Below are positions 11,454 through 38,534 of a DNA stretch of 64,000 nucleotides, one piece after another. Both the position numbers and the translations under genes were made by a program. Within the stretch, counting starts at the first letter, position 1. Each line of letters opens with the position of its first letter. The stretch comes from Clostridia bacterium UC5.1-2E3 (GTDB taxonomy: Bacteria > Bacillota > Clostridia > Lachnospirales > Lachnospiraceae): contig BBZO01000013.1 of assembly GCA_001304875.1 (NCBI GenBank), positions 1-64,000 of the forward strand, written 5' to 3'. Under the pieces are notes generated by a model. It searched no databases. It was not told the DNA's origin and saw nothing but the letters and a program-made list of their open reading frames with translations.

Positions 11454-11493
11454 TATATAACTATTTGCAATTTCCTTTGTGGCCGGGTAGTAT
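11454..11493 (+). promoter_or_regulatory. motif-bearing promoter of the AKR-flavodoxin unit (site E)
   Basis: TATATAACTATTTG (11454-11467) overlaps a -35 TTGCAA (11465-11470), then 17 bp and TAGTAT (11488-11493). The same sequence in the same register precedes operons at 23.3, 29.1, 32.3 and 38.5 kb. A LysR activator site overlapping the -35 would fit. Confidence 0.6.
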
Positions 11494-11533
11494 GAATGAA
11501 AGAGAGTCTGATAAAATCGGAGGAGGTTTTACC

Positions 11534-12384
11534 ATGGAAATGATTCAGTTAAATAACGGTGTCCAGATGCCGCAGCTGGGATTCGGCGTTTTTCAGGTGA
11601 CGGACGAAGCACAGTGCAGGGCGTGTGTGCTGGAGGCGCTGAAAACGGGATACCGTCTGATTGACACGGCGGCCTGTTATGGAAATGAGAGGGCCGTGGG
11701 GGCCGCGATGCGGGAAAGCGGGATTGCGAGGGAGGAAATATTCGTCTCCTCAAAGGTGTGGATCCAGGATGCGGGCTATGAGGCGACGCTGCGGTCATTT
11801 GAGAAAACGCTTGAGAATCTGCAGACGGAGTATCTGGATCTATATCTGATCCATATGCCTTACGGCGATTATCATGGGAGCTGGAGGGCCATGGAGGAGC
11901 TTTTAAGGGAGGGGAAAATACGCGCCATCGGTGTGTGCAATTTCCTGCCGGACCGCCTGGCCGATCTCATTTTGAGTCATGAGATTGTGCCGGCAGTCAA
12001 CCAGATGGAATGCCATCCGTTCTGCCAGCAGAAGGAGCTGCGCGCATTCCAGGAGCGCTATGGTATAAAAATGATGGCCTGGGCGCCGTTTGCCGAGGGC
12101 CGGGAGGGGATTTTTGTGAACCCGGTGCTGGCGGAGATTGGCGGATACTTTGGAAAAACGCCGGCGCAGGTGATTCTGCGCTGCTGCGCCAGTGCGGGAT
12201 GATTGCGATTCCCAAGTCGGTGCATGAGGAGCGGATCCGGGAGAATTTTGACATCGACGGGTTTGCGCTCTCTGATGCGCAGATGGAACGGATCGGCGCG
12301 ATGGACCGGGAAAAGAGCGTGATTCTGGATATCCCCAGCCTGGATGAGGTGTACCGGCTTCACGGGATACGGTTTGTGCAGTAG
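11534..12384 (+). CDS. aldo/keto reductase, 2,5-diketogluconate reductase type (frameshifted)
   Basis: About 283 aa. NADPH-dependent carbonyl reductase fold: catalytic tetrad visible as D in LIDTAACYGNE (with Y), K in SSKVW and H in YLIHMPYGDY; IPKSVHEERIRENFDIDGF is the C-terminal cofactor-binding segment. One base is missing near 12184, in LRW-LRQCGM, where a GG has probably become G. Start ATG 11534 has AGGAGG upstream. First gene of a unit with a cyclophilin-like lipoprotein and a flavodoxin, a grouping that suggests reductive detoxification of reactive carbonyls or quinones (inference). Confidence 0.9.
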
Positions 12385-12441
12385 GGGCTGTGAGAGGGAG
12401 ATTTAGCGGAAAAATGCAGGAAATGCGGAAAGGAGCTGCGT

Positions 12442-13050
12442 ATGAGGAGACAGGCATACCTGGCGGGAGCGCTGGCGTTCATATTTCTCCTGTGCGGCTG
12501 CGGTGGGCAGGCGGGCGCTGCGGAGAGGCAGCAGGGGACTGTGGACGCTGAAACGGAGGCGAATACGGTTGAGACGACGGTGGATGCGGCAGAATCGGCG
12601 GCGGATGCGGCAGAATTGACGATGAGTGAGGCAGAATCGGCGGCGGATGCGCTAGAATCGGCGGCGCTCACGGCAGAGATAACAGGAGGGATGCAGATGA
12701 AAATACGGGTAAAAGCGGGCGAGACCGCGATCGATTATGTGTTAAATGACAGCCAGGCGGCCAGGGATCTGTACGAACAGCTGCCGCTGACTCTGGAAGT
12801 GGAAAATTTCAGCACCAATGAGAAGGTGTTCTATCCGCCGGAAGAGCTGGATGTCAGAGATGCGCCCATGGCGGATGCGGGGCTGGGGACGCTGGCATAC
12901 TATGCGCCCTGGGGAGACGTGGTGATGTTCTATGATGCGTTTGGCAGAGGGAGCGGGCTTTACGAGCTGGGAGAGGCCGTGTCCGGGGAGGAAATGATCG
13001 AGATGCTATCCGGGACGATCGAGGTGAGCGCCGTTGAGGCAGAGGAGTAA
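12442..13050 (+). CDS. cyclophilin-like-fold lipoprotein
   Basis: 202 aa, intact. Signal peptide with lipobox LLCGC (Cys near residue 19), then an Ala/Glu/Asp-rich spacer with repeats of AESAADA, then a cyclophilin-like domain from about residue 85 (MKIRVKAGETAIDYVLNDSQAARDLYEQLPLTLEVENF... APWGDVVMFYDAFGRGSGLYELG). Resembles the Cyclophil_like family (PF18050), small beta-barrel proteins without proven isomerase activity. Relatives occur at 36999-37528 and, more divergent, at 30674-31285. Anchored outside the membrane. The link with oxidoreductases recurs in all three cases. Confidence 0.8.
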   Translation: MRRQAYLAGALAFIFLLCGCGGQAGAAERQQGTVDAETEANTVETTVDAAESAADAAELTMSEAESAADALESAALTAEITGGMQMKIRVKAGETAIDYVLNDSQAARDLYEQLPLTLEVENFSTNEKVFYPPEELDVRDAPMADAGLGTLAYYAPWGDVVMFYDAFGRGSGLYELGEAVSGEEMIEMLSGTIEVSAVEAEE

Positions 13051-13219
13051 GCGGGAAGGCAGGGAATTGAAGGCGTTCTGTGATGCATGGAATGCATGGC
13101 CGTCCACTTAATTTAGTTATTAGACAAACGTCAGAAACGGATGTATAATTTTTACAGACCATCAGACGCAGCTCCGGATGCTCAGCGGAGGGGCTGCAGG
13201 AAGGAAAGGAGATTTTGTT

Positions 13220-13699
13220 ATGAGCAAAAAACTGGTTGCATATTTTTCCGCCAGCGGGGTGACAAAAAAGGCGGCGGAGGCTCTGGCGGAGGCCGCGGGA
13301 GCCGATCTGTATGAGATTAAGCCGGAGGTTCCCTACACGAGGGCCGATCTGGATTGGATGGATAAGAAAAGCCGCAGCACCTTGGAGATGAACGACCCGG
13401 CCTCCCGCCCGGCCATTGCCGGCAAGGTGTCCGGGATGGACGCATATTCCGTCGTGTTTGTCGGATTCCCCATATGGTGGTACACGGCGCCCTCCATCAT
13501 CAAAACATTTCTGGAGAGCTATGATTTCGCCGGAAAGACGGTGATCCCGTTTGCGACCTCCGGCGGCAGCGGACTGGGAAAGACGGCCAATGATCTGCGC
13601 GCAGTCTGCCCGGCGGCTGATATTAAGGATGGAAAGCTGTTAAACGGAAGACCGAGCGCCGCGGCCCTGGGCAGCTGGGTGAAGGAGCTGGGAGTTTAG
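13220..13699 (+). CDS. flavodoxin-family protein
   Basis: 160 aa, intact. [39 protein letters not shown] is the FMN phosphate-binding start (S-A-S-G-V-T); [24 protein letters not shown] and [11 protein letters not shown] are typical of the Flavodoxin_4 group. Cytoplasmic electron carrier or NAD(P)H-dependent FMN enzyme. Start ATG 13220 has AAGGAAAGGAG upstream; an earlier in-frame start at 13178 would add a non-homologous extension. Likely co-regulated with the AKR and lipoprotein upstream. Confidence 0.9.
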
Positions 13700-13789
13700 G
13701 CGTCTGAGCTGGAAGTCTGGGAGACTGGGCTGGGACGTTTAAGTCCTGGACGGAAGATCGGAATGGAAATAAAAAATGAGATTGCAAAG

Positions 13790-13836
13790 AGCGTATGCCG
13801 ATGTACTGTGGGAGGTGCAGGGGCATACGCTTTTTT
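13790..13836 (+). terminator. terminator after flavodoxin
   Basis: AGCGTATGCC (13790-13799) and GGCATACGCT (13822-13831) form a perfect 10-bp stem with a 22-nt loop, followed by TTTTTA. The long loop is unusual but the U tract fits termination. Confidence 0.65.
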
Positions 13837-13865
13837 ATATTCCTAAGATGTCGTGGAAATAGTAC

Positions 13866-13899
13866 AAAAAACGAGGCTGACCAAATGCAGTCAGCCTCG
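13866..13899 (-). terminator. minus-strand terminator hairpin without a gene
   Basis: CGAGGCTGAC (13872-13881) and GTCAGCCTCG (13890-13899) form a perfect 10-bp stem with an 8-nt loop; six A residues on the left become a T6 tail on the minus strand. No gene reads into it: 13900-14150 has no convincing frame on either strand, so it may end a small minus-strand RNA or be a remnant. Confidence 0.5.
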
Positions 13900-14152: not shown

Positions 14153-14180
14153 TTGCTTTTTACAGGAAATAAGATATAAT
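14153..14180 (+). promoter_or_regulatory. promoter of cstA
   Basis: TTGCTT (14153-14158), 16-bp spacer, TATAAT (14175-14180), 50 bp before the cstA start; AAGGAGGG provides the ribosome-binding site. Confidence 0.6.
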
Positions 14181-14229
14181 GAAGGTATGGTGGATTATAA
14201 ATTTTTTATAAAGCAAGGAGGGAAAGAGA

Positions 14230-16677: not shown

Positions 16678-16700
16678 GCGGGGGCTACTCAAAGAAATCC

Positions 16701-22691: not shown

Positions 22692-23078
22692 GTGACAACA
22701 GCAATCCTACTGGCAGTTCTTGTCCTGGCCTGCATATACGGCGGATACGCCTATGTGAAAAAGCTGCGGGCCGGCGGCGGATGCTGCGGCCCCCACGAGG
22801 CCGCGGAGAAGAAGATGCGGGTGGCGGACAGGGATAAAAGCCACTATCCTTACACCGCGGTGCTCCGGGTGGACGGCATGACCTGCTCAAACTGCGTGCG
22901 CCGCGTGGAGAACAGCTTAAACCGCCTGGATGGCGTCTGGGCGGAGGCGGATCTGGGGCAGGAGACCGCGCGGGTGCGCATGAAGCGGCCGCTGGAGGAC
23001 CGGGTGCTTGCGGACGCAGTGCGGGACGCGGGGTACAGAGTGCGGGAGATTAAGAGAGAGGAACAGACGAAGGCTTAG
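22692..23078 (+). CDS. membrane-anchored heavy-metal-associated (HMA) domain protein
   Basis: 128 aa, intact, GTG start 14 bp after the GLUG gene. N-terminal membrane helix (AILLAVLVLACIYGGYAYV), a CC-containing linker (GGGCCGPHEA), then an HMA ferredoxin-like domain with the metal site GMTCSNC (about residues 64-70). Such domains bind Cu(I) or similar soft metals. Finding one tethered to the membrane at the end of a TetR-MMPL-GLUG unit is unusual; no metal ATPase is adjacent. Partner unknown. Confidence 0.8.
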   Translation: MTTAILLAVLVLACIYGGYAYVKKLRAGGGCCGPHEAAEKKMRVADRDKSHYPYTAVLRVDGMTCSNCVRRVENSLNRLDGVWAEADLGQETARVRMKRPLEDRVLADAVRDAGYRVREIKREEQTKA

Positions 23079-23169: not shown

Positions 23170-23254
23170 GTGCTGTGGCGGGCAGTTCTTCGCTTTTTTC
23201 GTTTTTCGTCTTTCGCGGGAGTCAAAATATAGAAAAAAGCATAATATAATATTT

Positions 23255-23294
23255 TCTATAAGTATTTGTTATTGAGAAAACCTGCTGATACAAT
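23255..23294 (+). promoter_or_regulatory. motif-bearing promoter of the C45-PaaK-ABC operon (site A)
   Basis: TCTATAAGTATTTGTTAT (23255-23272) contains -35 TTGTTA (23266-23271); 17 bp later is TACAAT (23289-23294). Same motif and register as sites at 11.45, 29.0, 32.2 and 38.5 kb, although no LysR gene is adjacent. Confidence 0.6.
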
Positions 23295-23325
23295 ATAGAC
23301 AGGAAAATGAGGAGGAGCAAAAGCC

Positions 23326-24451
23326 ATGAGAAGAAACTTGGTTCAGATCTGCGCAGCCTGATGGCAGCAGTGGCGGTGTTCTCCGGCTGCGGCGTGCGGA
23401 AAGCGGCCGGAAACCAGGGCGGGCCGGGCGGCGCAGGGCTTCGACCAGACGGTGCGCAGAATGAGATTACACAGGAGGAAGAGGCCTTGACATGGACAGA
23501 AAAAATTACAGAGCTGGAGACTGGTCTGTCGGCGGTACGGTACGAGGGAGACTATGGGTTTGACACGTTTTTGGAACAGGGAGGGGCAGCCTCGGATTCG
23601 GAAGTGATCCGTTTTCTGACAGCCAATGTGATTCTGGGAGCGGCGGACCTGGAGCTGGATATCCGGGGCATGGGGTGCAGCACAATATCCGCACAGACGG
23701 GGCAGGGCGGTTATCTGTTCGGACGCAATTTTGACTGGAACCGGTGCGAGGCACTGATCGTCGGCGCAGGCCGGACGGGGGATACGCCTCGATTTCCACA
23801 GTGAATGTGGATTTCATCCGGCAGGGAGGCGGCGGGCTGACCGGACTGGCGCTTAGGAATGATGGAATTTTGACCAAAGCCGCGCTCTATGCGCCTCTGG
23901 ACGGGGTGAACGAGAAGGGACTGGCAGTTTCGGTCAACATGATACAGGACTCTGCCAGAATCGACCAGGATACGGGGAAACCGGATCTGACGACGACCAC
24001 GGCGGTGCGGCTTCTGCTGGACCGGGCCGCGGACGTGGAGGAGGCTCTGGAGCTTCTGGCACAGTACGATCTGCACGGTTCCATGGGAATGATGATCCAT
24101 TTTGCGCTGGCGGACGCAGGCGGAAGGAGCGTGGCCGTGGAGTACATCGACAATGAGATGACCGTGACAGAGACGCCTGTGGTGACGAATTTTTATCTGA
24201 CAGAGGGCGAAAAGCACGGGATCGGAACCAGCCAGTCCCACGACCGCTATGAGAGTCTGATGGAGCGGCTGGAGGAAAAAGATACGTTTACCGCGGAGGA
24301 GATGCGGGACGCCCTGGAAAGCGTCAGCAAGAAAAATTTCGGAGAGTTTGAGTCCACGGAGTGGAGCGCTGTGTTCGACCAGGAAAACAGGGATGCGCGG
24401 TATTATCACAGAGAAGACTATACAAAATACTATTTCTTTGCCATGCCATAA
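23326..24451 (+). CDS. C45/choloylglycine hydrolase-like lipoprotein (two frameshifts)
   Basis: About 375 aa. ATG 23326, 10 bp after GGAGGAG, gives MRRNLVQICAA; with a base restored near 23360 it runs into LMAAVAVFSGCG, a lipobox. A second break lies near 23772. The core GCSTISAQTGQGGYLFGRNFDWNRCEAL matches linear amide C-N hydrolases (acyl-coenzyme A:6-APA acyltransferase and bile-salt hydrolase group), where the Cys becomes the N-terminal nucleophile; NVDFIRQG and GLAVSVNM follow. An N-terminal nucleophile enzyme still carrying a lipoprotein leader is noteworthy. Substrate unknown: N-acyl amides or penicillin V-like compounds are candidates. First gene of a unit with a PaaK-like ligase and an ABC exporter. 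Confidence 0.75.
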
Positions 24452-24463
24452 AAGGAGGACTTT

Positions 24464-25803: not shown

Positions 25804-25815
25804 GGAGAGAATGTC

Positions 25816-26572
25816 ATGAAAAAGGTGTTGCTTTTTGCCGACGGCGTATGCAAAGCATTTGGAGCCGGGAAAAAGGGCCTGGTTTTAAACCACGTCAGCA
25901 CGGATATTTATGAGGGAGATTTTACGGTTATCATGGGCGCCTCCGGGGCGGGGAAATCCACGCTCCTGTACGCGCTGAGCGGCATGGACCGCATCACGGG
26001 CGGCAGGGTGTTCTATAAGGAGAGAGAAATCAGCCGTATGAAGGAGCGGGAGATGGCGGCGCTCAGAGCCGCGGAATTTGGCTTTGTGTTCCAGCAGACC
26101 CACCTGGTCAGCAATCTGACGCTGTTTGAAAATGTGAAGATGGCGGGATTTCTGGGAAATGCGGGCAGACGGCTGCAGTGGAGCGGCGGGCCGCGGAGCT
26201 TTTGAGGCGGGTGCATGTGGAAGGGGCGAAAGATCGCCTTCCCGCTGAGGTTTCCGGCGGAGAGGCCCAGCGGGCGGCGATTGCGCGGGCGGTCATCAAC
26301 CAGCCGGGAATCCTGTTTGCGGACGAGCCACGGGGGCGCTGAACAAGAGAAATTCCACAGAGGTGCTGGAGCTTCTGACGGAGTTAAACCGCGGCGGACA
26401 GAGCATTCTGATGGTTACCCACGATTTAAAAGCGGCGCTTCGGGGAAACCGGATCCTCTATCTGGAGGACGGGGAGATTCTGGACGAGATGGAGCTTGCG
26501 CCCTTCGGGGAGCAGAATCTGCGGGAGCGGGAAACGGATGTGAACCGGTGGCTCGCGTCCCTGGAATGGTAA
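25816..26572 (+). CDS. ABC transporter ATP-binding protein, MacB/LolD type (two frameshifts)
   Basis: About 252 aa. Walker [11 protein letters not shown]-loop [18 protein letters not shown], signature [14 protein letters not shown], Walker B ILFADEPTGALN, H-loop VTHD. Breaks near 26165 and 26330 (a C lost in CCC before ACGGGG). The subfamily pairs with FtsX-like permeases and exports or extracts lipids and peptides. GGGAGA lies just upstream of ATG 25816; the permease gene follows within 10 bp. Confidence 0.88.
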
Positions 26573-26579
26573 GGAGGCG

Positions 26580-28927
26580 GTGTTTGTGAGGCGGATTCTT
26601 TTAAAAGCCAGTATGAAGCGCCACAGAGGCAGCCTGTCTGGAATCTTCTTTCTGATCAGTCTGTCAGCGCTGTTTCTGACGGCGGTGCTGATCGTGGGAT
26701 ACAGCGCCGGGCGCTTTGAGAAACGGGAGCTTGCGCGGCTGGGATATGGGGACATGACGGCGTGGGTGTCGGGGGATGCAGCGGTGCTGGCCGGGCTTTC
26801 CGGGGAGCTGAGGGCACAGGAAGCGGTGGAAGCTGTGAGCGTCCAGCCGCTGATTTTCTCTGACTATGAGATAAACGGACAGGATTCAGACAGCGAAGGG
26901 CAGCTTATCCTGTATGAACCGTCCCGGGTGGCCTACCGCTTTTTTGACGGGGACATGTCCGGATATGGGGAAGCGCCTAAGCAGGTCCGGAGCGGGGAGG
27001 TCTATCTGCCGGCCTCCCTGGTCTCCATGTACGGGGCCGCCGTCGGCGACGAGATCCGCTTTTTTCTCGCAAGGCAGGGCGGGGAGCTTGCGCTGACGGT
27101 CGCCGGATTTTTGAAGATCCGTTTATGGGAAGCTCCATGATCGGCATGAAGGGCTTTCTCGTATCGGAGGAAACCTTTGAAACGGCGCGGGAAATGATCG
27201 GCGGGGCCGGAATCGACGGGCTGGCGAGAGAGGGTGGCATGGTACATATCGCCGCCGCGGATTCCTCGATGACAGCGGCGGACTTAAACCGGATTCTCTA
27301 TGAAAATACCAGTCTGGCCGCATACACAGACTTTTTATACAGTGCAGAGACCATTTCCGGCTTTATGATGACGCTGCAGAACGTATTTACCGGATTCCTG
27401 CTTGCCTTCGCGGCGATTCTGCTGGCGGTGGCCTGGTGGTCATCGGGTACAGCCTGGGAAGCGGCATCGGGCGGGATACGAAAAATATGGGAATTTTAAA
27501 GACCATGGGCATGACCGGCAGGGGACTTAAGGCGCTCTGGCTGGCGCAGTATTTCATTCCGGTGCTGGCCGGGCTGGCGGCGGGGAGCGCGGCGGCGGTT
27601 CCTCTGTCCCGTCTGGCGGGGAGAATGATGGTGACGGCAACGGGCGTTCTGATAGAGATGGATATGCCGCTGGCTCTCTGGGCGGGGGCCGTCCTGGTGA
27701 TTCTTCTGCTCACAGGCGGTTTTATCTGTCTTCAGACGGGGCGGATCGGCAGGATCACGCCGATGGAGGCTATCCGCTCCCGGGCGGCGGCCGCAGCTGG
27801 AAAAGGCTTCCGTTTTCCGTTAAAAAGGAGCAGCTGGAGCTCCGGCTGGCCCTGCGGCAGCTCCTGGACGGGAAACGGCGGTATCTGAGCGTCTGTCTGA
27901 CGGCCCTGCTGCTGGTGTTTTTGCATCCATGGCCGGCCGGCTTGACGCATGGCTGGGGCCGGAGGGACGGGGGCTTATGGACGCCTTCAATCCGGCGGAC
28001 CTGGATCTGGCGGTGCAGCCGGTCAACGACGTGGACATGGAGGCCGTGGAGCGGCTGATCTCGCAGTATACAGAGATCACAGACCGGTACAGTCTGGCGA
28101 TGCCGGATGTGGCGGTGGAGGGAATCGGCTGTACGGCCAACGTGATCACGGAGCCGGAGCGGTTTCATATGCTTTCCGGAAGGACGGCCGGGGGCGGACG
28201 ATGAAATCGTGGTAACTGAGTTTGTGGCGGCGGATATGGGAATAGGCCCCGGAGATACGGTGTCCGTCGCTTACCAGGGCAGGGAGGCGGCGTTTACGGT
28301 GACAGGGATTTACCAGTGCGCCAATGAGATGGGAGCCAATATCGGCATGAGCCGGGCGGGATTTTTGCGGATCGGCGCAGAGACGGCCAACATGTGGTGC
28401 AGCCACTATTTCCTGCGGGACGTTTCCCGGAAACCGGAAATCATGGCGGCGCTGGAGGAAGCCTGGGGGAGCGCCCTGTATATCCATGAAAATTCCTGGC
28501 CCGGGCTGGCGGGAATCCTGGCGGCCATGGATCTGCTGCTTACGGCGCTCTACGTGACCGCGGCGCTCTTTGTGCTGACCGTGACGGTGCTGACGGGAAG
28601 CCGTCTGCTGGCGGCGGAGCAGAGAGAGCTGGGGATTTACCGGAGCCTGGGATTTTCCAGCGAAGGGCTGCGAAGGAGCTTTGCGGCGCGGTTCGGGATC
28701 GCGGCTCTTCTGGGGGCTGCGGGCGGCCTCTTCCTCGGGGCGCTGTTTATCGATCCCCTGGTGGGAGCGGTGCTTAGGGGCAACGGGATCAGTAACTTCC
28801 ACTCGCAGCCGGGGGTCCTGGCCCTGTTTTTTCCAGCCGCAGTGATTCCCCTGCTGTTCTGGGGCTTTGCCTGGATGTACGCAGGAAGATAAAACGGGTG
28901 CCGCTGACCATATTGGCGGCGGATTGA
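26580..28927 (+). CDS. FtsX-family ABC transporter permease (about six frameshifts)
   Basis: About 780 aa. N-terminal membrane helix (SGIFFLISLSALFLTAVLIVGYSAG), extracellular MacB-like domain, three helices, a second extracellular domain (MAGRLDAWLGPEGRG...), then three C-terminal helices. GRDTKNMGILKTMGMTGRGLK and QRELGIYRSLGFSSEGLRR are the paired FtsX signatures, one per half. Breaks near 27112, 27432, 27788, 27925, 28195 and 28880; closing the last moves the stop from 28892 to 28927 and adds a charged tail. GTG start at 26580 or 26586 behind AAGGAGG. Partner of the preceding ATPase. Confidence 0.82.
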
Positions 28928-29002
28928 CCGCGGAGGGACTGGCGGCTGACGGTTGGCGGTTGATACCTATAAATTATGCTTAATAGACATAGATAACTAT
29001 TA

Positions 29003-29042
29003 TATATAAGTATTTGATATAGAAAGAAATCTGCTATATAAT
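29003..29042 (+). promoter_or_regulatory. motif-bearing promoter of the DUF3737 unit (site B)
   Basis: TATATAAGTATTTGATAT (29003-29020) with -35 TTGATA (29014-29019), 17 bp, TATAAT (29037-29042). This is the best match of the five shared promoters and comes close to a perfect sigma-A promoter. Confidence 0.7.
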
Positions 29043-29104: not shown

Positions 29105-29982
29105 ATGATGATGAACGCGAAAGAAATCAGAGAGCAGAGACTGACCGGGGAGAGAGCCTTGTTTGGCGGGGAGAACTTAAACATTTACGATACCATCTTT
29201 GCAGATGGGGAATCCCCTCTGAAAGAGAGCCGGAACATTGCGCTCTACGGGAGCATGTTCCAGTGGAAATATCCGCTGTGGTATGCGAAACACATCTACG
29301 CGAAGGAATGTTCCTGGGCCGAGATGGGGCGCGCCGGCGTCTGGTACACGGACGACATCACGGTAGAGCATTCCCTGATCGAGGCGCCGAAGAATTTCCG
29401 CCGCTGCCACGGCGTGAAGCTGTTCCATGTGGATTTTCCCAACGCGGCGGAGACGCTCTGGAGCTGCGACGGCGTGGTGCTGGAGGACGTGATGGCAAAG
29501 GGCGATTATTTCGCCATGAACAGCCAGAACATGGTCATCCGCAATTTCCGCCTGTCCGGCAACTATTCCTTCGACGGCGTGAAAAATGTGGAAATCCACA
29601 ACGCGAGAATGATGACGAAGGACGCCTTCTGGAACAGCGAGAATGTGACCGTGTACGATTCCTACATCTGCGGCGAGTATCTGGGCTGGAACGCGAAGAA
29701 TCTGACGCTCATTAACTGCACCATCGAGAGCCTGCAGGGAATGTGCTACATCGACAATCTGGTGATGAAAACTGCCGGCTGTTAAATACGACCCTGGCTT
29801 TTGAGTATTCCTCCGTGGACGCGGAGATCTTAAGCGGCATTGAGAGTGTGATGAATCCCACCTCCGGCACCATCTGCGCGGAGCATATCGGGGAGCTGAT
29901 CATGGAGCCGGATAAGGTGGATGTGAGCCGCACGAAAATCATCTGCCGGGACGAGGACATGGAGCTGAGACAGGCGGTGTAA
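29105..29982 (+). CDS. DUF3737 family beta-helix protein (one homopolymer frameshift)
   Basis: About 292 aa. Repeating short strands (NIYDTIFADGESPLKESRNI, SMFQWKYPLWYAKHI, GVWYTDDITVEHSLIEAPKNFRRC, NAKNLTLINCTI) are characteristic of DUF3737, a right-handed beta-helix family of unknown function. At about 29770 the run of four A should be five, restoring MKNCRLLNTTLAFEYSSVD. No signal peptide, so cytoplasmic. In Firmicutes it is frequently near LysR, AKR and cyclophilin-like genes, as here. Confidence 0.85.
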
Positions 29983-30008: not shown

Positions 30009-30659
30009 ATGGGCGGGGATATGTATCTGATCCGGGGGATTGTGATCGGCGTTATCTTTGGCGTGCCGGCGGGAGTAATCGGGATCATGACGGTGCAGCG
30101 CACGCTGGAGCATGGATTTGCGGCGGGAATTGCCACCGGCTTCGGTTCCACGGCGGCGGACCTGCTATATGGCTGTATCGGAGTCTGCGGGCTGACCGCC
30201 GTGTCCGACCGGCTGATGTCCTGGGAGTGGCTCATACGCCTTCTGGGCGGCGCACTGATTGCGGTCTTCGGAGTGAGGACGCTCCGGGCAGGGACGCTCC
30301 GGGCTGCGGCCATGGAGCAGAATGCAGACTCCTCTGAGACGGAGGTTTCTGGCAGGAGGCGGTCCCTTTTCCTGTTTGGGTCTTCCTTTCTGGTCGCGCT
30401 CACGAACCCGGCCACCATCCTGGCGTTTCTTACCGCCTTCGCCTCCTCTGGCCTCCTGGGCGGCGTGACGGCCGGGCAGGGAGCCTGCCTTTTAGGCGGG
30501 CTGGCGCTGGGAACCGGAGGCTGGTGGATCTTTCTGGCGGGGATCACGTGTGTCCTTCGCAGAAAGATAAACGGCGGGCTCTTTGGAACGCTGAATAAGG
30601 TTCTGGGCGGGCTTATGGTGGCGTTCGGAATCGGGGCAGCCGCCGGAGGAATTTTATGA
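30009..30659 (+). CDS. LysE-family exporter
   Basis: 216 aa, intact, about six membrane helices. GVPAGVIGIMTVQRTLEHGFAAGIATGFGSTAADLLYG matches the LysE/RhtB N-terminus and FLVALTNPATILAFLTAFAS the central NP motif. The family exports amino acids and related metabolites. ATG 30009 sits after AAAGAGGG. It ends in ATGA overlap with the region of the next gene, indicating one transcript with DUF3737. Confidence 0.88.
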   Translation: MGGDMYLIRGIVIGVIFGVPAGVIGIMTVQRTLEHGFAAGIATGFGSTAADLLYGCIGVCGLTAVSDRLMSWEWLIRLLGGALIAVFGVRTLRAGTLRAAAMEQNADSSETEVSGRRRSLFLFGSSFLVALTNPATILAFLTAFASSGLLGGVTAGQGACLLGGLALGTGGWWIFLAGITCVLRRKINGGLFGTLNKVLGGLMVAFGIGAAAGGIL

Positions 30660-30673
30660 AGGAGAAAATAATC

Positions 30674-31285
30674 ATGAAGAGACAGAACAGATGGATTTGT
30701 TTAGGACTGACAGCGCTAACCGCGGCCGCATTTCTGGCCGGCTGCGGCGCCCCGGCCAGTTCCTCCGGCGGAACTTCCGCAGGAAATACAGGCCCGGACA
30801 CAAGCACAGCTTTAGCCGGAAATACGGCTGCAGATGGCGGTGCGGGCACAGCGGCGGAAGATGCCGCCAATATGGAAAAAATCACGGAGCTGACCGTGTA
30901 TTTCGGGGACGACGGCGCGCCGTTTCCCATGCATCTGTATGACAACGATACGGCGGCGGCCATCGCGAGGTATGTGGGGCAGAGCTCCTGGAGGCTGCCG
31001 ATCTATCATTATGACGACTACGAAAACTGGGAGGTCATGCAGTATTACGATATCCCGGGCAGGTATGAGATTCCCGAAAACCCGGAGGAAGTGACTTCCG
31101 TGGAGGCGGGCAGCGTCTACTATTCGGAGCCGAACCGCATCCTCCTGTTTTTCCACGACGCGGAGATCTCCGCGGAGTACACGCCGGTGGGATATTTTGA
31201 GGCCACAGACGAGTTTGTGGAGGCGGTGGAGGAAAATCCGGTGCTGGAGGGCTGGGGCAACAAGATTGTCCGGATCAGGCAGTGA
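30674..31285 (+). CDS. lipoprotein, divergent cyclophilin-like fold
   Basis: 203 aa, intact. Lipobox LAGC at about residue 22, a low-complexity Gly/Ser/Ala/Thr linker, then a domain from about residue 75 (KITELTVYFGDDGAPFPMHLYDNDTAAAIARYVGQ... SEPNRILLFFHDAEISAEYTPVGYFE) that seems a divergent relative of the cyclophilin-like lipoproteins in this window. AAGGAG suits ATG 30674; an in-frame ATG at 30656 overlapping the LysE stop is possible. Third gene of the DUF3737-LysE unit. Its 3' end overlaps the opposing LysR gene by 11 bp. Confidence 0.65.
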   Translation: MKRQNRWICLGLTALTAAAFLAGCGAPASSSGGTSAGNTGPDTSTALAGNTAADGGAGTAAEDAANMEKITELTVYFGDDGAPFPMHLYDNDTAAAIARYVGQSSWRLPIYHYDDYENWEVMQYYDIPGRYEIPENPEEVTSVEAGSVYYSEPNRILLFFHDAEISAEYTPVGYFEATDEFVEAVEENPVLEGWGNKIVRIRQ

Positions 31286-32146
31286 GCTCCTGGAGCTTGA
31301 TCAGAAATTTCTCCGCCGGCTTGGAAAAGATCTGGTATTTTTCCAGACGATGCTCATGCCTACATTCAGGGGCGGCGAAAGCGGCTTAAAACAGAGTTCA
31401 GAATCTACCGTGTTGATAAGCCCCGCCAGGCAAGGGCATAGCCCAGCCCGTCTTTAACCATGAGAGAGCCGTTGAACAGAAGGTTGTAGGTGCGGCGCTG
31501 TGGAGCTGGCCAGGATCACGTCTAAGCCACGCAGCCAGCGGGCTGTCGTCCCTGGTGTTCCGGTTCCAGATCAGCGGTTTGTCCCACAGGTCCTCGGGGG
31601 TGATCGCATCCTTCGAGGCAAGCTCAGAGTCCCGGCGCATGAGAACCCCGTAGCTGTCCTGGAAGGGGAGTCTCAGATACTCATAGCGGGATTTGTCGAC
31701 GGGGTCAAACAGCAGGCCGAAGTCGATCAGCCCCTTATCCAGGTCGTCGGTCACGTCCGTGGTGTCGCCGCTGGCAATGTGAAAGCGGACGTCCGGGTGC
31801 TCCTGCTGGAGAAGCCGGGCCGCCTTCGTGAGGAAATGGACGCCTCCGTCTCCCCGGCTCCGATATAGACGTCCCCGGAGATGCTGCTGTCGGTAACGGC
31901 AATTTCCGTCTCGGTCTTTTTCACCAGATCCAGAATTTCCTCCGCCCGTTTCCGGAGAATCATGCCCTCATCCGTCAGCGTAATCCGCCGGGAACCACGG
32001 ATAAAAAGCTGTTTCCCCAGTTCCTCCTCCATGTCGCGCAGCTGCCTGGAGAGGGTGGGCTGGGAGAGGTGCAGGGATTCGGCGGCGCGGGAGACGTTCT
32101 GCTCGCGGGCAACCGCCAGGAAATATTGAAGTACGCGAAGTTCCAT
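31275..32146 (-). CDS. LysR-family regulator (about four frameshifts)
   Basis: About 291 aa. Intact winged HTH (MELRVLQYFLAVAREQNVSRAAESLHLSQPTLSRQLRDMEEELG), then effector domain in several frames: breaks near 31865, 31505, 31440 and 31335. Restored text includes DLDKGLIDFGLLFDPVDKSRYEYLRLP and the C-terminus WKKYQIFSKPAEKFLIKLQELTA. Divergent from the MalY-type operon, whose promoter holds the shared motif. Very similar to the LysR at 37535-38418. Confidence 0.85.
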
Positions 32147-32240
32147 GTGGATGACTCCTTTCTTTCATCAGTGGGAAACGTTTCCTGTCAGTATCATTTT
32201 ATCATTTTAATCTATGTTTGTAAAGCATAGTAATTTATTA

Positions 32241-32280
32241 TATATAAGTATTGGATATAAATTAAAGGACGCAGTACAAT
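32241..32280 (+). promoter_or_regulatory. motif-bearing promoter of the MalY-hydrolase-ADH unit (site C)
   Basis: TATATAAGTATTGGATAT (32241-32258), -35 TGGATA (32252-32257), 17 bp, TACAAT (32275-32280). Lies between the divergent LysR and the aminotransferase gene. Confidence 0.65.
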
Positions 32281-32313: not shown

Positions 32314-33499
32314 ATGCCGGAATACAATTTCGACCAGGTAATCGACAGAAGAAACAGCAATTCCTTAAAATGGGACGTGGAGGAGGGCCAGCTGCCCATG
32401 TGGGTGGCGGACATGGATTTCCAGACAGCTCCGGAAATCCGGCAGGCCATCGCCCGGCGGGCGGAGCACGGGATTTTCGGTTATTCCATCGTCCCCGGCC
32501 AGTGGTATCTGGCGTACCAGGCTGGTGGGAAAAACGCCATCATTTTCACATGGAAAAGCACTGGCTGATGTTCGTGACGGGCGTGGTTCCGGCCATCTCC
32601 AGCGCCGTGAGAAAGCTGACGACGCCGGGGGAAAACGTGCTGATACAGACGCCGGTCTATAATATCTTTTTTAATTCCATTGTCAATAACGGCCGGAACG
32701 TGCTGGAAAGCCCCTTAAAATACAGGGACGGCGCCTACGAAATTGATTTTGGCGATCTGGAAGAGAAACTGGCGGATCCGCAGACTACCATGATGATTCT
32801 CTGCAACCCGCAGAATCCAGTAGGTAAGATCTGGGACAGAGAAACGTTGGCAAGGATCGGGGCGCTGTGCCGGAAACACCACGTGATCGTCCTGTCGGAC
32901 GAGATCCACTGCGATCTGACCGCGCCGGGAAGAGAATACATCCCGTTCGCCTCGGTTTCGGAGGACTGCCGGGAGAACAGCGTGACCTGCCTGGCTCCGA
33001 CCAAGGCGTTTAACCTGGCGGGGCTCCAGACGGCGGCGATTATGGTTCCCAATGAGGCGCTGCGCAATAAGATGCACCGCGCCATCAACACCGACGAGGT
33101 GGCGGAGCCCAACGCATTTGCGGTGGAGGCGGCGGTCGCGGCGTTCACGAAAGGAGAGGCGTGGCTGGATGCGCTGCGGGCCTACATCGAGGAAAACCGC
33201 CGGCTGGCAAAGCGCTGGCTGGCGGAGCGGATCCCGAAGCTCTGGCCGGTGGATGGGGAGGCGACCTATCTGCTCTGGCTGGGACTGCCGGGAGGGTTCT
33301 GGGGGACGCGACGGAGCTTGCCGGATATCTGCGGAAAACCACCGGGCTGTATGTGTCGGAGGGCGCACAGTACGGGAGATGCGGCGCGGCGTTCCTGCGC
33401 CTCAATATCGCCTGCCCCAGAGAGACGCTGGAGGACGGGCTGCGGCGGCTGGAAACCGGGGTGCCGATGTATGAGGAGTGGGCGGTAAGCCATTGTTAA
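32314..33499 (+). CDS. MalY/PatB-type aminotransferase or C-S lyase (two frameshifts)
   Basis: About 396 aa, fold-type I PLP enzyme. FDQVIDRRNSNSLKWD and LPMWVADMDFQTAPEI are the MalY/PatB start; NPQNPVGKIW, LSDEIHCDL and PTKAFNLAGLQTA follow, the Lys of PTKAFNL being the PLP anchor. Breaks near 32520 (YQAWWEKRHHF) and 33292. PatB-like members cleave cystathionine or cysteine conjugates, so it could release thiols from conjugated electrophiles. First gene of the LysR-facing operon that continues with hydrolase, small protein, dehydrogenase, SDR and lipoprotein. Confidence 0.88.
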
Positions 33500-33535: not shown

Positions 33536-34707
33536 ATGAAACGAAACAGACATATTTTGGGCGGGATGCTGATTCTGGCCATGCTGGTCAGTGCCGGTTG
33601 TTCGACGCAGGGAGGAGGCGGGACTGCATCCGTCGCTGAAACGACAGCGGAAACGCAGGAAACCATGCAGAGTGCAGGAGAAGGAAGCGAAATGATGGAA
33701 AATACAGTACAAAATATCGAAGCCACAGAAAATCCGAATCTTGCGGTGCGGGTAGCGCCGGAGGAGGAGCATTATATTTTTGAACTCAGCGACCAGGTGA
33801 CAAGAACCCATGTCTATTATCAGAACCGCTTTGGAATTGAGCTGGCGGGTGATCTGTACGTGGCAAAGGATGCAGACCTGGAGACGCAGCATCCGGCGCT
33901 GGTAATCGGGCCTCCCTTCGGCGGAGTGAAGGAGCAGGGACCTGGCGTCTATGCCAACGAGCTGGCGCAGCGGGGGTTTGTTGTGCTCACCTTTGACCCG
34001 TCCTATCATGGATACAGCGGCGGTCAGCCGCGGATGGTGGGCTCCACGGATATCTATGCGGAGGATTTCAGCGCCGGCGTGGATTATCTGGCAGTCTGGA
34101 CTATGTGAACCGGGAGCAGATCGGCGCCATTGGCATATGCGGCAGCGGAGGCTTTGCACTCTCGGCGGCAGCCATGGATTCCAGAATCAAAGCCATCGCC
34201 ACCAGCGTGATGTACGATATCAGCAGTATCGGAAACAGTACCACCGGGGAGGAGCGGCAGGCGACCTTGGAGGGGCTGAGCCAGCAGCGCTGGGCAGATT
34301 TTGAGAACGGGGAGCCGGCGTTCCAGACCTCCTATCCGGATGCTCCGACGGAGGAAATTCCAGAAGGGCTGGATCCGGTGACGGAGGAATTTTACAGCTT
34401 TTATGGCACGGAGAGGGGATGGCATCCCAATGCACTGGGAAATGTGACCACGACCTCCATGCTGTCTCTGATGAATTTCCCGTCCCTGGCCCATATCAGC
34501 GAGATTGCGCCCCGTCCCATTCTGTTTATCGTGGGGGAAAATGCGCATTCCGTGGGATTCAGCGAGACGGCGTATGCCAATGCGGCAGAGCCAAAGGAGC
34601 TGTATGTGGTTCCGCAGGCAAACCACGTGGATCTGTATGATCAGGTGGATAAGATTCCGTTTGACAAGCTGGAAACCTTTTTCGGGGAAGCGTTCGGGCT
34701 GGAGTAG
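33536..34707 (+). CDS. alpha/beta-hydrolase lipoprotein (one frameshift)
   Basis: About 390 aa. Lipobox VSAGC (about residue 22), linker rich in Thr/Glu, then a YcjY-like alpha/beta hydrolase: GPPFGGVKEQGPGVYANELAQRGFVVLTFDPSYHGYSGG, the nucleophile elbow IGICGSGGFALSAAAMD, and late NHVDLYD providing the histidine. The elbow reads C-G-S-G-G rather than GxSxG. One base is missing near 34092. A cytoplasmic paralogue without lipoprotein leader is at 38812-39752. Probable acyl-ester or dienelactone-like hydrolase; substrate unknown. Confidence 0.8.
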
Positions 34708-34746: not shown

Positions 34747-34989
34747 ATGAGACAGAAGCCGATGGCGGCCGCTCCGGTTTCCCTGGTGCAGAACTTAGAA
34801 GATGCCGGCTGCGGGCCGGAGCTTGTGAAAGAGTTTCTTGCACTGAAGGAGACCGGGGATGTAAACGGCCAGATGAGATTATTAAGAATCCACAGGCAGT
34901 GCCTGCTGGATGAAGTGCACACAGGCGAAAAGCGGATCGATTGCCTGGATTATCTGGTATATCAGATGGAAAAAGAGAACGCTGTGTGA
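34747..34989 (+). CDS. small CLDYL-motif protein (MerR C-terminal-like)
   Basis: 80 aa, intact, ATG after AAGGGGG. Helical, with LEDAGC, a central CLLDEVHTGEKRIDCLDYLVYQMEKEN. The last segment resembles C-terminal coiled-coil ends of MerR-family regulators, but the DNA-binding HTH is absent. A paralogue at 38555-38790 shares LLDAGC and the IDCLDYLVYQ block; each lies beside one of the two paralogous alpha/beta hydrolases. Three cysteines could serve redox or metal sensing. Function unknown. Confidence 0.75.
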   Translation: MRQKPMAAAPVSLVQNLEDAGCGPELVKEFLALKETGDVNGQMRLLRIHRQCLLDEVHTGEKRIDCLDYLVYQMEKENAV

Positions 34990-35006
34990 AGAAGGAGGAC
35001 AACCAG

Positions 35007-36175
35007 ATGTTAGGAAATTTTGAATATGCAAATCCCACAAGATTATATTTCGGGGAGGATTCCCTGGGCTATCTGAATGTGGAGCTGCCGAAGTTCGGGC
35101 AGACAATCATGCTGACCTATGGCGGCGGTTCCATTAAGAAAAATGGGATCTATGATCAGGTTGTGGAGATTCTGAGAGCGAACGGCAAGACAGTGGTGGA
35201 AGATCCCGGCGTGATGCCGAATCCCACAGTTGAGAAGCTGTATGAGGGATGCCGGATTGCGAGAGAGAACCAGGTGGATCTGATTCTGGCTGTGGGCGGC
35301 GGTTCGGTCTGCGATTATGCGAAGGCCGTCTCTGTTTCCGCGTACTGCGAGGAGGACCCGTGGGAGAAATATTATCTCCGCATGGAGGATGTGGACAATC
35401 CGGTCATTCCCGTGGGCTGTGTTCTGACGATGGTGGGAACCGGTTCTGAGATGAACGGCGGCGCTGTAATAACCAATCATGAAAGCAGGCTGAAAATCGG
35501 CCATGTATTTGGGGACAACGTATTCCCGAAGTTTTCGATCCTGAATCCAGTATTTACCTATACGCTGCCGGAGTATCAGATGGTTGCGGGCATCTATGAT
35601 ATTTTCAACCACATCTGTGAGCAGTATTTTTCCGGGGAAGACGACAATACCAGCGATTATATCAGCGAGGGGCTGATGCGCTCTCTGATCCGCGCCAGCC
35701 GCATCGCAATTCAGAATCCTGCGGATTATGAGGCCAGGAGCAATATCATGTGGACGGCGACCTGGGCGTTAAATACGCTGATTGCCAAAGGGAAGACGAC
35801 GGACTGGATGGTACACATGATCGGACAGTCCGTGGGAGCCTATACGGATGCCACCCACGGCATGACCCTGGCGGCGGTGTCCATGGCCTATTACCGTCAT
35901 ATCATGCCCTGCGGCCTGGCGAAATTTCGCCGTTTTGCCGTGAATGTCTGGGATGTCAGTCCGGAAGGAAAGAGCGACGAGACGATCGCAGCGGAAGGCC
36001 TTGGCCGGATGGAGGCTTATATGAAGGAACTGGGGCTGGTGATGAATCTGAGAGACCTGGGCGTGACAGAGGATATGCTGGAGGGCATCGCGGACGGCGT
36101 TCTGCCATGAACGGGGGCTATAAGGTGCTGACGAGGGAGGAAATCTCCGCTGTCTTACGAGAGAGCATGAAATAA
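35007..36175 (+). CDS. iron-containing alcohol dehydrogenase, YqhD/BdhA type (frameshift near 3' end)
   Basis: About 389 aa. MLGNFEYANPTRLYFGEDSL is the NADPH-dependent butanol dehydrogenase-like start; AVGGGSVCDYAKAVS is the GGGS nucleotide motif; metal ligands are supplied by the D/H residues around IYDIFNHICEQYF and DATHGMTLAAVSMAYY. The frame breaks near 36107; restoring it replaces an early stop with MNGGYKVLTREEISAVLRESMK, the normal C-terminus. Reduces aldehydes, including reactive short-chain ones, using NADPH. AAGGAGG lies 8 bp before ATG 35007. Confidence 0.92.
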
Positions 36176-36194
36176 GAGAAAAGAGGTATTTGAG

Positions 36195-36965
36195 ATGGAA
36201 AGACAGATGCTGAAAGACAAAGTCGCTATTATCACAGGCGCCAGCTACGGCATGGGCCAGACCATGGCGGAGCTGTTCGCGGAGGAAGGCGCCGCGGTGG
36301 TCATCACTGCGCGGGGAAAGGAAAAGCTGGATGCAGTGGTGCAGGGAATCCGCCAAAAAGGCGGAAAGGCGGTCGGCGTTGTGGCCGACGTGTGCTCCAC
36401 AGAGGATACCCGTCGGGTATTTGAAACGGCGGTAAAGGAATTTGGCGATGTGGACATTCTCATCAATAATGCCGGCATCGGCGAGCAGAAAATGATCGAT
36501 GAGACGGATGACGAGTGGATGAGATTCGTCATGGACACGAACCTGGGCGGGCCGATGCGGTATATCCGCGAGGCTTTAAAAATCTTTCTGCCGAAAAATG
36601 ACGGCGTGATCATCAACATTTCCTCGGTCAACGGGGAGCGCCCGTTCTGCGGAGCCACCTACACCTCCACGAAGGGAGCGCTAAACACGCTGACGAAGAA
36701 CGTGGCGATGCGTTTGATCGACACCAATATCCGCTGCAATGCGGTGGCGCCCGGCTCCACCATAACGCCGGCGCACCTGGCCAATAAAGCCGGTGAACAG
36801 CCGGGCGGGGCGAAGATGCACCAGTACAGCGGGCACTTTGTCTATTTCCCCGGCCCGGAATGCGATCCCATGGACCAGGCCTATGCCTGCCTGTATCTGG
36901 CCAGCAAGATGGGGTGTCACGTGAAGGGGCAGGTCATCCAGGTGTGCAACGGGGCGTTTCTGTAA
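36195..36965 (+). CDS. short-chain dehydrogenase/reductase
   Basis: 256 aa, intact. Cofactor motif TGASYGMG, NNAG at about residue 90, catalytic ISS, YTSTK (Tyr and Lys) and NAVAPGSTITPAH. Classical SDR of unknown substrate. The C-terminus (GHFVYFPGPECDPMDQAYACLYLASKMGCHVKGQVIQVCNGAF) is normal. Fifth gene of the motif-C operon, 19 bp after the dehydrogenase. Confidence 0.92.
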   Translation: MERQMLKDKVAIITGASYGMGQTMAELFAEEGAAVVITARGKEKLDAVVQGIRQKGGKAVGVVADVCSTEDTRRVFETAVKEFGDVDILINNAGIGEQKMIDETDDEWMRFVMDTNLGGPMRYIREALKIFLPKNDGVIINISSVNGERPFCGATYTSTKGALNTLTKNVAMRLIDTNIRCNAVAPGSTITPAHLANKAGEQPGGAKMHQYSGHFVYFPGPECDPMDQAYACLYLASKMGCHVKGQVIQVCNGAFL

Positions 36966-36998
36966 ATCGTCCCATTATACAGAAAAGAGGTAAATCGG

Positions 36999-37528
36999 AT
37001 GAAAAAAAGACGTTCAGTTTTAATGACTGTTTTCCTTCTGTTTGCCCTGCTGCTGATCGCGTGCGGAAGCCGTCAGCAGGCGTTTGCGGAAACCGCGCAG
37101 ACGGTCGTTTCCCCAGAAGAGAAACCGGCGCAGCCGGAGGAAGTGGAAACCGGAGAGGAGGACGAACCTGTGAAGATGGAGGTAACGGTGGGTGAGACCG
37201 GGTTTACAGCGACGCTGGCGGACAATGAAGCAGTGGACGCCTGGTGGAAATGATGGAGAGCGGTCCGGTCGTGCTCCAGATGCGGGATTACGCCGGCTTT
37301 GAAAAGGTGGGGCCGCTGGGAAAAAGCCTTCCCGCCAGCAACCGCCAGATGACAACACAGGCCGGAGACATTGTTCTGTACCAGGGCGATCAGATCGTGA
37401 TGTTTTACGGCACAAACTCCTGGAGCTATACGAGGATCGGGCACATTGACGATCTGACCGGCTGGGAGGACGCACTGGGAGACGGGGATGTGACTGTGAC
37501 ATTTTCCATGGACAATCAGGCAGGATAA
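36999..37528 (+). CDS. cyclophilin-like lipoprotein (one frameshift)
   Basis: About 176 aa. Lipobox LLIAC (residue about 22), Glu/Pro linker, then a textbook Cyclophil_like (PF18050) domain: MEVTVGETGFTATLADNEAVDAL, then VEMMESGPVVLQMRDYAGFEKVGPLGKSLPASNRQMTTQAGDIVLYQGDQIVMFYGTNSWSYTRIGHI. One base is missing near 37238. Ends the operon; the opposing LysR begins 7 bp on. Confidence 0.88.
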
Positions 37529-37534
37529 CCTGCT

Positions 37535-38418
37535 CTAGAGAGGCCGGTGAAATGCTTCCTCCAGCCGCTTCACCAGAAGCTCCGCAATCGGCGTGAACAC
37601 CTGGTATTTCTTCCAGATCACATACATTTTATTTTCCAGCACCGGCGACAGCGGGCGGAAACAGAGACTGCTCTCCGGGCTGGTGTCGGCCAGGCGGGCG
37701 AAGGTGAGCATACATCCGAGCCCCTCCTTCACGAACACGGATCCATTGTAAAACAGGTTCACGGTCCCCGTAAACCGGAGCGTGTCTGCCTTCTGCCCGC
37801 ACCAGCGGGGAATGTCTGCCTTCATGGACTGCTCTGAGCAGATGAGGTCGATGCCGGCCAGGTCGTCGCAGGTGATGGACTCGAGGGCCGCCAGCGGGTG
37901 GTCCCGACGCATGAGAACACCCCAGGTATCCACGCCGGGGATTTCGATGTAGTTGTAGTGGGAGAGGGACGGCGGCTCCACGATGAACGCGAAGTCCAGA
38001 AGGCCCCGGTCCAGCCGCTCCGTCACCTGCTCCGTGCCGCCGCTGTAGAGGTGGTAGCGGAGCCTCGGATAGTCTTCCCTGACGCCCGGATCACCTGTGC
38101 CAGATGGCTGACCAGGTGGGATTCCGCGCAGCCGATGCGCACGTCTCCGCCGGTGATATCTCCCAGCGCTTTGAACTCGTCTGTGGTTTTCTCCACCATT
38201 TCCAGGATTTCCTCCGCCCGTTTCCGGAGAAGCATCCCCTCGTCGGTCAGCTTAATGCTGTAGTTGCTGCGCACGAACAGCTTTTTTCCCAGCTCTTGTT
38301 CCAGATCCTTGAGCTGTTTCGACAGCGATGGCTGCGAGATGTGCAGCGCCGCCGCGGCCCGGGTGACGCTTCCCTCCCTGGCGGTCTCAAGAAAATATTT
38401 CAGCACGCGAATTTCCAT
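37535..38418 (-). CDS. LysR-family regulator (one frameshift)
   Basis: About 294 aa. HTH in MEIRVLKYFLETAREGSVTRAAAALHISQPSLSKQLKDLEQELG; effector domain continues after a lost base near 38092 (VREDYPRLRYHLYSGGTEQVTERLDRGLLDFAFIVEPPS). Sister of the LysR at 31275-32146. Divergent from the small protein-hydrolase-AKR unit carrying promoter site D, which it presumably controls. Confidence 0.87.
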
Positions 38419-38494
38419 CGGTCTTACCCCCTGTCATCTGATTTTCCCCATTATACACCGTATAGATATTCATTACAAGAATAACTAATTATAG

Positions 38495-38534
38495 AAACTA
38501 AATATTTGATATTATTGTGCACCTCCCCTATAAT
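38495..38534 (+). promoter_or_regulatory. motif-bearing promoter of the hydrolase-AKR unit (site D)
   Basis: AAACTAAATATTTGATAT (38495-38512), -35 TTGATA (38506-38511), 17 bp, TATAAT (38529-38534). The least conserved upstream half of the five, but the -35/-10 part is exact. Confidence 0.6.

Follow-up and report, generated by a model that had tools for sequence, protein, structure and literature searches.

Five promoters with a common box

The stretch analysed here, referred to as the window, comprises 64,000 nucleotides of Clostridia bacterium UC5.1-2E3 (contig BBZO01000013.1, positions 1 to 64,000). It is part of contig C13 of a draft genome of 3.46 Mb that is 86.7% complete. The window contains five plus-strand promoters with a similar sequence around the -35 hexamer and three LysR-type regulator genes on the opposite strand. 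An original prediction, made from the sequence, held that these promoters share one motif and suggested a LysR regulon for electrophile or carbonyl stress, or for the handling of a specific metabolite, dispersed over 27 kb. The promoters, listed as putative operator-promoters on the interpretation developed below, and the regulator genes are as follows.

11427-11493, plus strand: operator-promoter 1; upstream box 11427-11441, downstream boxes 11450-11471 over the -35 hexamer, -10 hexamer 11488-11493
23228-23294, plus strand: operator-promoter 2, without an adjacent LysR gene; weak upstream box 23228-23242, downstream boxes 23251-23272, -10 hexamer 23289-23294
28976-29042, plus strand: operator-promoter 3, without an adjacent LysR gene; upstream box 28976-28990, downstream boxes 28999-29020, -10 hexamer 29037-29042
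32214-32280, plus strand: operator-promoter 4, opposite LysR2; upstream box 32214-32228, downstream boxes 32237-32258, -10 hexamer 32275-32280
38468-38534, plus strand: operator-promoter 5, opposite LysR3; upstream box 38468-38482, downstream boxes 38491-38512, -10 hexamer 38529-38534
13083-13149, plus strand: possible degenerate sixth site, before the flavodoxin gene at 13178; upstream box 13083-13097, -10 hexamer 13144-13149, scored at 13113
10424-11319, minus strand: LysR1; frame broken near 11230; Pfam LysR_substrate and HTH_1, with the helix-turn-helix in two pieces; member of the subfamily described below
31281-32146, minus strand: LysR2; read in pieces; HTH_1; subfamily model matches 31281-31883 and 31841-32146
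37535-38418, minus strand: LysR3; read in two pieces; HTH_1; subfamily member

Four of the five promoters matched the 18-mer TATATAAGTATTTGATAT with 0-3 mismatches, compared with 0.01 matches expected from shuffles of the window. The sites at 29003, 32241, 23255, 11454 and 38495 differed from it by 0, 1, 2, 3 and 4 mismatches respectively. At all five sites the -10 hexamer begins 16 nucleotides past the box, giving a spacer of exactly 17 bp to the -35-like hexamer inside the box, as originally predicted. The -10 hexamer of the 11.5 kb site is poor (TAGTAT), and at the 32.2 kb site the -35 hexamer in the 17-bp register reads TGGATA. Three of the sites lie opposite LysR genes, each of which had to be read in pieces, and two (23.3 and 29.0 kb) have no adjacent LysR gene, again as predicted.

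Independent scores were obtained with a weight matrix trained solely on 104 non-redundant sites of other genomes. Among 127,858 window positions scored, the matrix ranked the five sites first to fifth: 32244 (operator-promoter 4, 43.6), 29006 (operator-promoter 3, 42.9), 38498 (operator-promoter 5, 36.8, third despite its 4 mismatches to the 18-mer), 23258 (operator-promoter 2, 26.9) and 11457 (operator-promoter 1, 21.3). This ranking bears out the claim of a shared motif. The next position, 13113, scored far lower (2.2) and could be a separate, degenerate site for the flavodoxin gene at 13178. A shifted register at 28963 was rejected as a site.

The box is one half of a two-part operator

The sample of relatives consisted of 99 stretches covering 107 listed sites outside this genome, of which 106 had full flanks and were aligned. 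The alignment revealed an A-T pair at -30/-29 and another at -17/-16, together forming AT-N11-AT, an element that had not been used in the search, and a further A-T pair at -7/-6. AT-N11-AT occurred at the exact offset in 79 of the 106 sites (18 for the runner-up offset), and the unsearched AT pairs at -30, -17 and -7 were present in 82, 82 and 92 of them. In the window the upstream box is clear at four of the five sites; operator-promoter 3 has no mismatch to the resulting two-box pattern and operator-promoter 1 has one. The A-T at -7 combines with the T-A-T at positions 5-7 to give another T-N11-A register, displaced upstream by seven bases relative to the first.

Assuming that transcription starts 7 nucleotides after the -10 hexamer, from which the start was inferred, the centre of the upstream box falls near -66 and that of the downstream box, ATA-N9-TAT, near -36. 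The two downstream T-N11-A registers are then centred at about -43 and -36 and overlap the -35 hexamer. Most of the sites thus have both parts of a LysR operator, a T-N11-A box near -65 and a second region at -35. Because relatives carry a conserved second box 30 bp upstream, the motif noticed originally is, as far as sequence can tell, just one half, the one nearer the promoter, of an operator of the classical LysR kind. According to PMC5002191, OccR boxes lie at -64 and -33 and that of PcaQ at -65.5, and the OccR, PcaQ and CatR operators, which contain two or three inverted repeats, consist, as here, of T-N11-A boxes of the form ATA-N9-TAT with the distal box near -64 to -66 and the proximal box near -33 to -36. 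The regulator gene is often divergent in those systems, as at sites described here. They differ in one respect: in the present genome one box precedes many unlinked operons and adjoins several regulator genes from a single subfamily.

Sites elsewhere in the genome

A refined pattern that included the -10 hexamer matched nine sites in the genome, compared with none for a reversed control. Four were in the window, two on contig C38 and one each on contigs C4, C3 and C2. The matrix gave 28.4 and 26.9 for the C38 sites and 24.7 for the C4 site. Seven two-box matches had 0-2 mismatches, namely four window sites, both C38 sites and the C4 site; matches with 3 mismatches on C26 and C34 were rejected (best scores -19.2 and -7.2). 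Four of the genome matches to the 18-mer itself were in the window and the fifth was on C38, about 90 bp before an aldo/keto reductase gene.

Genes on C38, C4, C3 and C2 were named from reading translations, and one reductase by BLAST. One C38 site precedes an aldo/keto reductase and an FMN reductase, and the other a MerR-like/flavin reductase/aldo-keto reductase group adjoining a LysR gene. On C4 the genes after the site encode a flavodoxin lipoprotein and an aldo/keto reductase, and on C16 a site (19.7) precedes a third alpha/beta hydrolase. The dispersal over 27 kb that was originally described is correct for the window and understates the extent of the system, since at least three further contigs (C38, C4, C16) carry such sites.

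As read from translations, positions 2553-11792 of C38 (locus L076) form a second island, in which two sites of the putative regulon accompany genes for flavodoxins, aldo/keto reductases and a flavin reductase as well as a LysR gene and a MerR-like one. Positions 1-4708 of C16 (locus L392) hold the third LysR/alpha-beta hydrolase pair, near a serine-recombinase-like gene, also by reading; this pair may therefore travel on mobile DNA.

Recurrence in relatives and linkage to LysR genes

A strict form of the pattern (box plus -10 hexamer, at most 1 mismatch) was present in 76 of 397 family genomes, with 3 matches in total for the reversed control. With the -10 hexamer included, signal and control separated at 1 mismatch; at 3 mismatches, where the pattern alone was counted, 290 of the 397 genomes had a match. 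The 18-mer by itself was rejected as a test, its signal being close to control both in relatives at 2 mismatches and in the genome itself at 3; a hand count over 60 family rows at 2 mismatches gave about 69 matches and 55 for the control. The two-box pattern without the -10 hexamer had 8 exact sites in 6 of 398 phylum genomes and none for the control. All seven of these that lie outside this genome have a hexamer with 4-6 of 6 matches to TATAAT at 16 nucleotides after the box. Exact matches to the operator pattern were also found in draft bins labelled Treponema brennaborense and Gastranaerophilales (L258, L296), reflecting horizontal transfer or mixed bins.

The upstream neighbour of a site was a LysR gene at 57 of 105 family sites and at least 70 of 114 sites listed from named genomes, compared with 1 of 29 control promoters (Fisher's test, 2.6e-7 and 5.2e-9). 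The named-genome scan was separate from the family scan and covered at least 118 stretches. Control promoters had the same -35 hexamer, spacing and -10 hexamer and were chosen without the box (30 loci, one per genome, from 60 genomes searched); ten of the 30 lay inside reading frames and one had a box scoring 26.8, so the set is neither position-matched nor free of true sites. Pfam LysR_substrate was found in the upstream neighbour at 56 of the 105 family sites, and the linked regulators have both the helix-turn-helix and the substrate-binding domain of LysR proteins. Divergent orientation of the LysR gene was frequent and not universal (41 of 105 family sites, at least 68 of the 114 listed named-genome sites, 3 of 5 in the window).

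The site-linked regulators form one clade. In a FastTree phylogeny with midpoint root, which took in linked LysR proteins of at least 270 amino acids and 25 other LysR pieces of at least 100 amino acids from this genome, a single split (support 0.84) held 119 of 120 motif-linked LysR proteins and 1 of the 25 others, on C42. The tree omits the frame-broken C16 LysR and some other LysR proteins of the genome. By hidden Markov model score the subfamily has six members in this genome, the three of the window and those of C38, C42 and C16 (broken frame), at 184-346 bits; all other LysR proteins scored 157 or less. Best sites were compared at 30 LysR loci, the LysR1 locus not among them, and those of the subfamily scored 43.6, 36.8, 26.9, 19.7 (C16) and 12.8 (C42), compared with 7.2 for the best of the others. 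Five of the six subfamily genes adjoin a clear site. At genome level, a LysR model (E 1e-40) found members in 10 of 11 genomes that have a strict site, compared with 24 of 49 that have none (p=0.016).

Mean identity among five of the subfamily members of this genome was 59% in the DNA-binding region and 33% in the sensor domain. Position 250 (C38 LysR numbering), in the sensor domain, is cysteine in 95 of 121 subfamily members, arginine in C38 LysR and, by eye, alanine in LysR1. With these two exceptions a general thiol switch was rejected; a partial redox sensor is possible. Among named LysR models, CidR, CynR and AlsR were among the best-scoring for C38 LysR, all far under their cut-offs (415, 277 and 430); the best, CidR, reached 123 bits, and the protein is not assigned to CidR. 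A search of the open-licence PubMed Central (PMC) literature found no description of the regulon and no characterised member of the LysR subfamily that shares the operator.

Genes served by the promoters

The genes downstream of the five promoters are listed below, with the family evidence for each.

11534-12384, plus strand: aldo/keto reductase 1; frame broken; best NCBIfam model DkgA at 210 bits (cut-off 425), scanned as the fragment 11465-12199
12442-13050, plus strand: cyclophilin-like lipoprotein; Cyclophil_like2, lipoprotein by reading
13178-13699, plus strand: flavodoxin; Flavodoxin_4 at 8.3e-78, NCBIfam PRK07116 over cut-off
23307-24451, plus strand: C45-type acyltransferase/amide hydrolase; frame broken; AAT and CBAH in the second piece, no family in the first; NCBIfam C45 at 79.3 bits (cut-off 85)
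24801-25586, plus strand: PaaK-like AMP-binding ligase fragment; AMP-binding, PaaK by reading
25816-28892, plus strand: ABC ATPase and FtsX-type permease; several broken frames; ABC_tran (25816-26202) and FtsX (28209-28889) from scans, the part between by reading
29105-29785, plus strand: DUF3737 protein; PF12541 at 4.1e-103
30009-31285, plus strand: LysE-type exporter and cyclophilin-like lipoprotein 2; family scan
32370-33488, plus strand: PatB-like C-S lyase/aminotransferase; Aminotran_1_2; NCBIfam PatB at 282.5 bits (cut-off 340)
33536-34707, plus strand: alpha/beta hydrolase 1, a lipoprotein in two frames; Hydrolase_4 at 7.4e-4 in the first piece (below cut-off), no family in the second; mainly by reading
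34941-36110, plus strand: YqhD-like iron-type alcohol dehydrogenase; Fe-ADH; best NCBIfam model PRK15138 at 269 bits (cut-off 645)
36195-36965, plus strand: short-chain dehydrogenase; adh_short
38797-40548, plus strand: alpha/beta hydrolase 2 and aldo/keto reductase 2; broken frames; both named by reading

These are the genes originally named, except that the first gene after the 32.2 kb promoter encodes the PatB-like protein. The description 'five redox operons' does not hold for the 23.3 kb operon (C45 hydrolase, AMP-ligase, ABC/FtsX) or the 29.0 kb operon (DUF3737, LysE, cyclophilin-like). Alpha/beta hydrolase 1 has paralogues at 38797-39752 and on C16; scans of 39048-39749, in alpha/beta hydrolase 2, found no family. 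In the PDB, YqhD (1oj7) matched the YqhD-like dehydrogenase at 8.8e-71, ranked behind 7w9x and 1vlj, and the DUF3737 protein had no relative by sequence at E 0.01. Genes split over at least two frames lie at 10424-11319, 11534-12384, 23307-28892, 31281-32146, 37535-38418 and 38797-40548, as does the C16 LysR gene on its own contig; this looks like sequencing or assembly error, true decay being the alternative.

Similar genes follow the sites in other genomes. Among 198 first downstream genes scanned, the commonest families were DUF3737 (30), cyclophilin-like (23), C45/choloylglycine hydrolase-like (17), MatE (13), hexapeptide transferases (11) and aldo/keto reductases (10); among 126 next genes of at least 130 amino acids they were DUF3737 (33), cyclophilin-like (18), Flavodoxin_2 (12), AMP-binding (11) and FMN reductase (9). 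DUF3737 was the commonest target family among the genes scanned; no paper in the PMC literature searched mentions it. First genes resembled a window protein in 45 of 98 and 50 of 100 cases, compared with 1 of 18 controls.

A candidate regulator for the orphan promoters

In the relatives the upstream box is equally frequent at sites that lack a LysR neighbour (38 of 49) and at those that have one (41 of 57). In other genomes an adjacent LysR gene was found at 14 of 18 sites with a C45 gene first, 17 of 30 with DUF3737 first and 1 of 16 with a cyclophilin-like gene first. The nearest relative in the present genome was LysR2 for all 14 C45-linked and all 17 DUF3737-linked LysR proteins, compared with 69 of 95 other linked ones (Fisher's test, about 5e-4, computed with 69 of 94). 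Because the regulators linked to these two families elsewhere are all closest to LysR2, LysR2 is the likely regulator in trans of the orphan promoters at 23.3 and 29.0 kb. A small heavy-metal-binding protein (CopZ-like, by reading) is encoded at 22692-23078, just upstream of the 23.3 kb promoter.

We infer binding and activation of the classical sliding-dimer kind. One dimer of a LysR tetramer would be anchored on the upstream box AT-N11-AT, centred at about -66, while the other dimer would occupy the downstream boxes overlapping the -35 hexamer, with their two T-N11-A registers at about -43 and -36. An effector would probably shift the downstream dimer, letting RNA polymerase start. The six subfamily regulators of the genome would act through like DNA-binding domains and divergent sensor domains, and LysR2 would most likely control both orphan promoters.

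Alternative explanations

A number of observations weigh against a single regulon with a specific operator. The 18-mer at up to 3 mismatches had 5 matches in the genome and the reversed control 3; at 2 mismatches it was present in 64 of 98 relatives, with control counts of like size. The two-box pattern without the -10 hexamer, at up to 3 mismatches, had 11 genome matches and 3 for the control. Two of the nine refined matches in the genome were rejected for lack of the second box: the C3 match, which is the gapA promoter (score 1.0), and the C2 match, inside a coding region (-7.9). No strict match was found in 321 of the 397 family genomes, 27 of the 106 relative sites have no clean upstream box, and at three of the seven phylum sites another position equals the TATAAT match. 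Operator-promoter 2 owes its score to the downstream half; its upstream box scores -3.7, and it departs from the two-box pattern at 3 positions. The first genes belong to many families (79 Pfam families among 98 proteins and 56 among 100), the C42 LysR gene has only its weak site and no obvious target gene, and the association of LysR2 with C45 and DUF3737 may partly reflect its central sequence, nearest as it is to most other linked regulators too.

The lack of specificity of the looser forms is what one would expect if the sites were chance resemblances among AT-rich promoters, an explanation with next to no probability in our view. Random recurrence of this kind had been raised in the original prediction, and it comes close to describing the loose 18-mer; the refined pattern does not behave in this way, and the shuffle expectation, the strict count in family genomes and the five top matrix ranks are likewise at odds with chance, which the LysR linkage and the unsearched second box contradict. 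Local duplication of a LysR-promoter cassette, with no present common regulation, would account for the clustering within 27 kb, for three regulators of one subfamily and for two similar hydrolases in the window. It is nonetheless very improbable: such sites occur in many genera and, in this genome, on further contigs; the boxes keep their positions whereas the spacers vary in sequence; and target genes are mostly unrelated. A third explanation, unlikely but the strongest of these, is that each LysR protein serves only its adjacent operon, that the shared sequence is what the clade requires, and that the orphan promoters are remnants of lost LysR genes. The sensor domains do differ, and since C45-first and DUF3737-first sites elsewhere often have an adjacent LysR gene, those of the window could have lost theirs. 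Sites without a LysR neighbour, however, retain the upstream box equally often and so seem to be maintained, and cyclophilin-like-first sites seldom have a LysR neighbour at all. A dispersed LysR regulon is strongly supported by the strong sites before related genes, their recurrence beside LysR genes and the same target families, the second box and the single LysR clade, and the five sites are very probably operator-promoters of one such regulon.

The physiological role is a separate matter. The regulon stands on comparative evidence, whereas the stress role originally assigned to it derives from enzyme families only. According to PMC5297802, E. coli YqhC activates yqhD, in connection with glyoxal and furfural, and yqhE (dkgA), in connection with furfural; a YqhD-like dehydrogenase and a DkgA-like aldo/keto reductase stand there under a local regulator, as here. 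YqhC is of the AraC/XylS type, whereas the regulators here are of the LysR type, with more target operons, and both enzymes fall below NCBIfam equivalog cut-offs. Because the adjacent regulators are LysR proteins, the system is not classed as a YqhC regulon, although its mode of action may be similar. Since the window encodes a YqhD-like and a DkgA-like enzyme, a carbonyl or electrophile role is plausible, and the targets could well point to detoxification of reactive carbonyls, electrophiles or xenobiotics, a reading to which we give slightly less than even weight. The hydrolases, ligases and DUF3737 may equally suggest the handling of a class of foreign compounds. Somewhat less probable, yet a serious contender, is a regulon that treats one class of metabolites as substrate, such as aromatic or amide compounds from diet or host, in place of general carbonyl stress: C45/choloylglycine hydrolase-like and MatE proteins among first genes, AMP-binding proteins among next genes and the alpha/beta hydrolases are in keeping with it, while the YqhD-like and DkgA-like enzymes and the flavodoxins fit electrophile reduction, judging from PMC5297802.

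Significance

We tentatively suggest that one operator grammar, AT-N11-AT followed by two interleaved T-N11-A boxes, staggered by 7 bp across the -35 hexamer, may be the common output of paralogous LysR sensors in gut Bacillota. Their divergent sensor domains might read different chemical signals into one detoxification programme, with the DUF3737 protein, putatively beta-helix-like, possibly acting in the response. The analysis groups DUF3737, cyclophilin-like lipoproteins, C45 hydrolases and several reductases of gut Clostridia, all poorly annotated, in a single regulon that can be tested, its operator being defined and its candidate regulators named, and it gives DUF3737 a first functional context. 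If the proposed role is true, the YqhC/YqhD aldehyde response would have a parallel among Gram-positive bacteria, one that bears on how gut bacteria meet reactive or foreign compounds.

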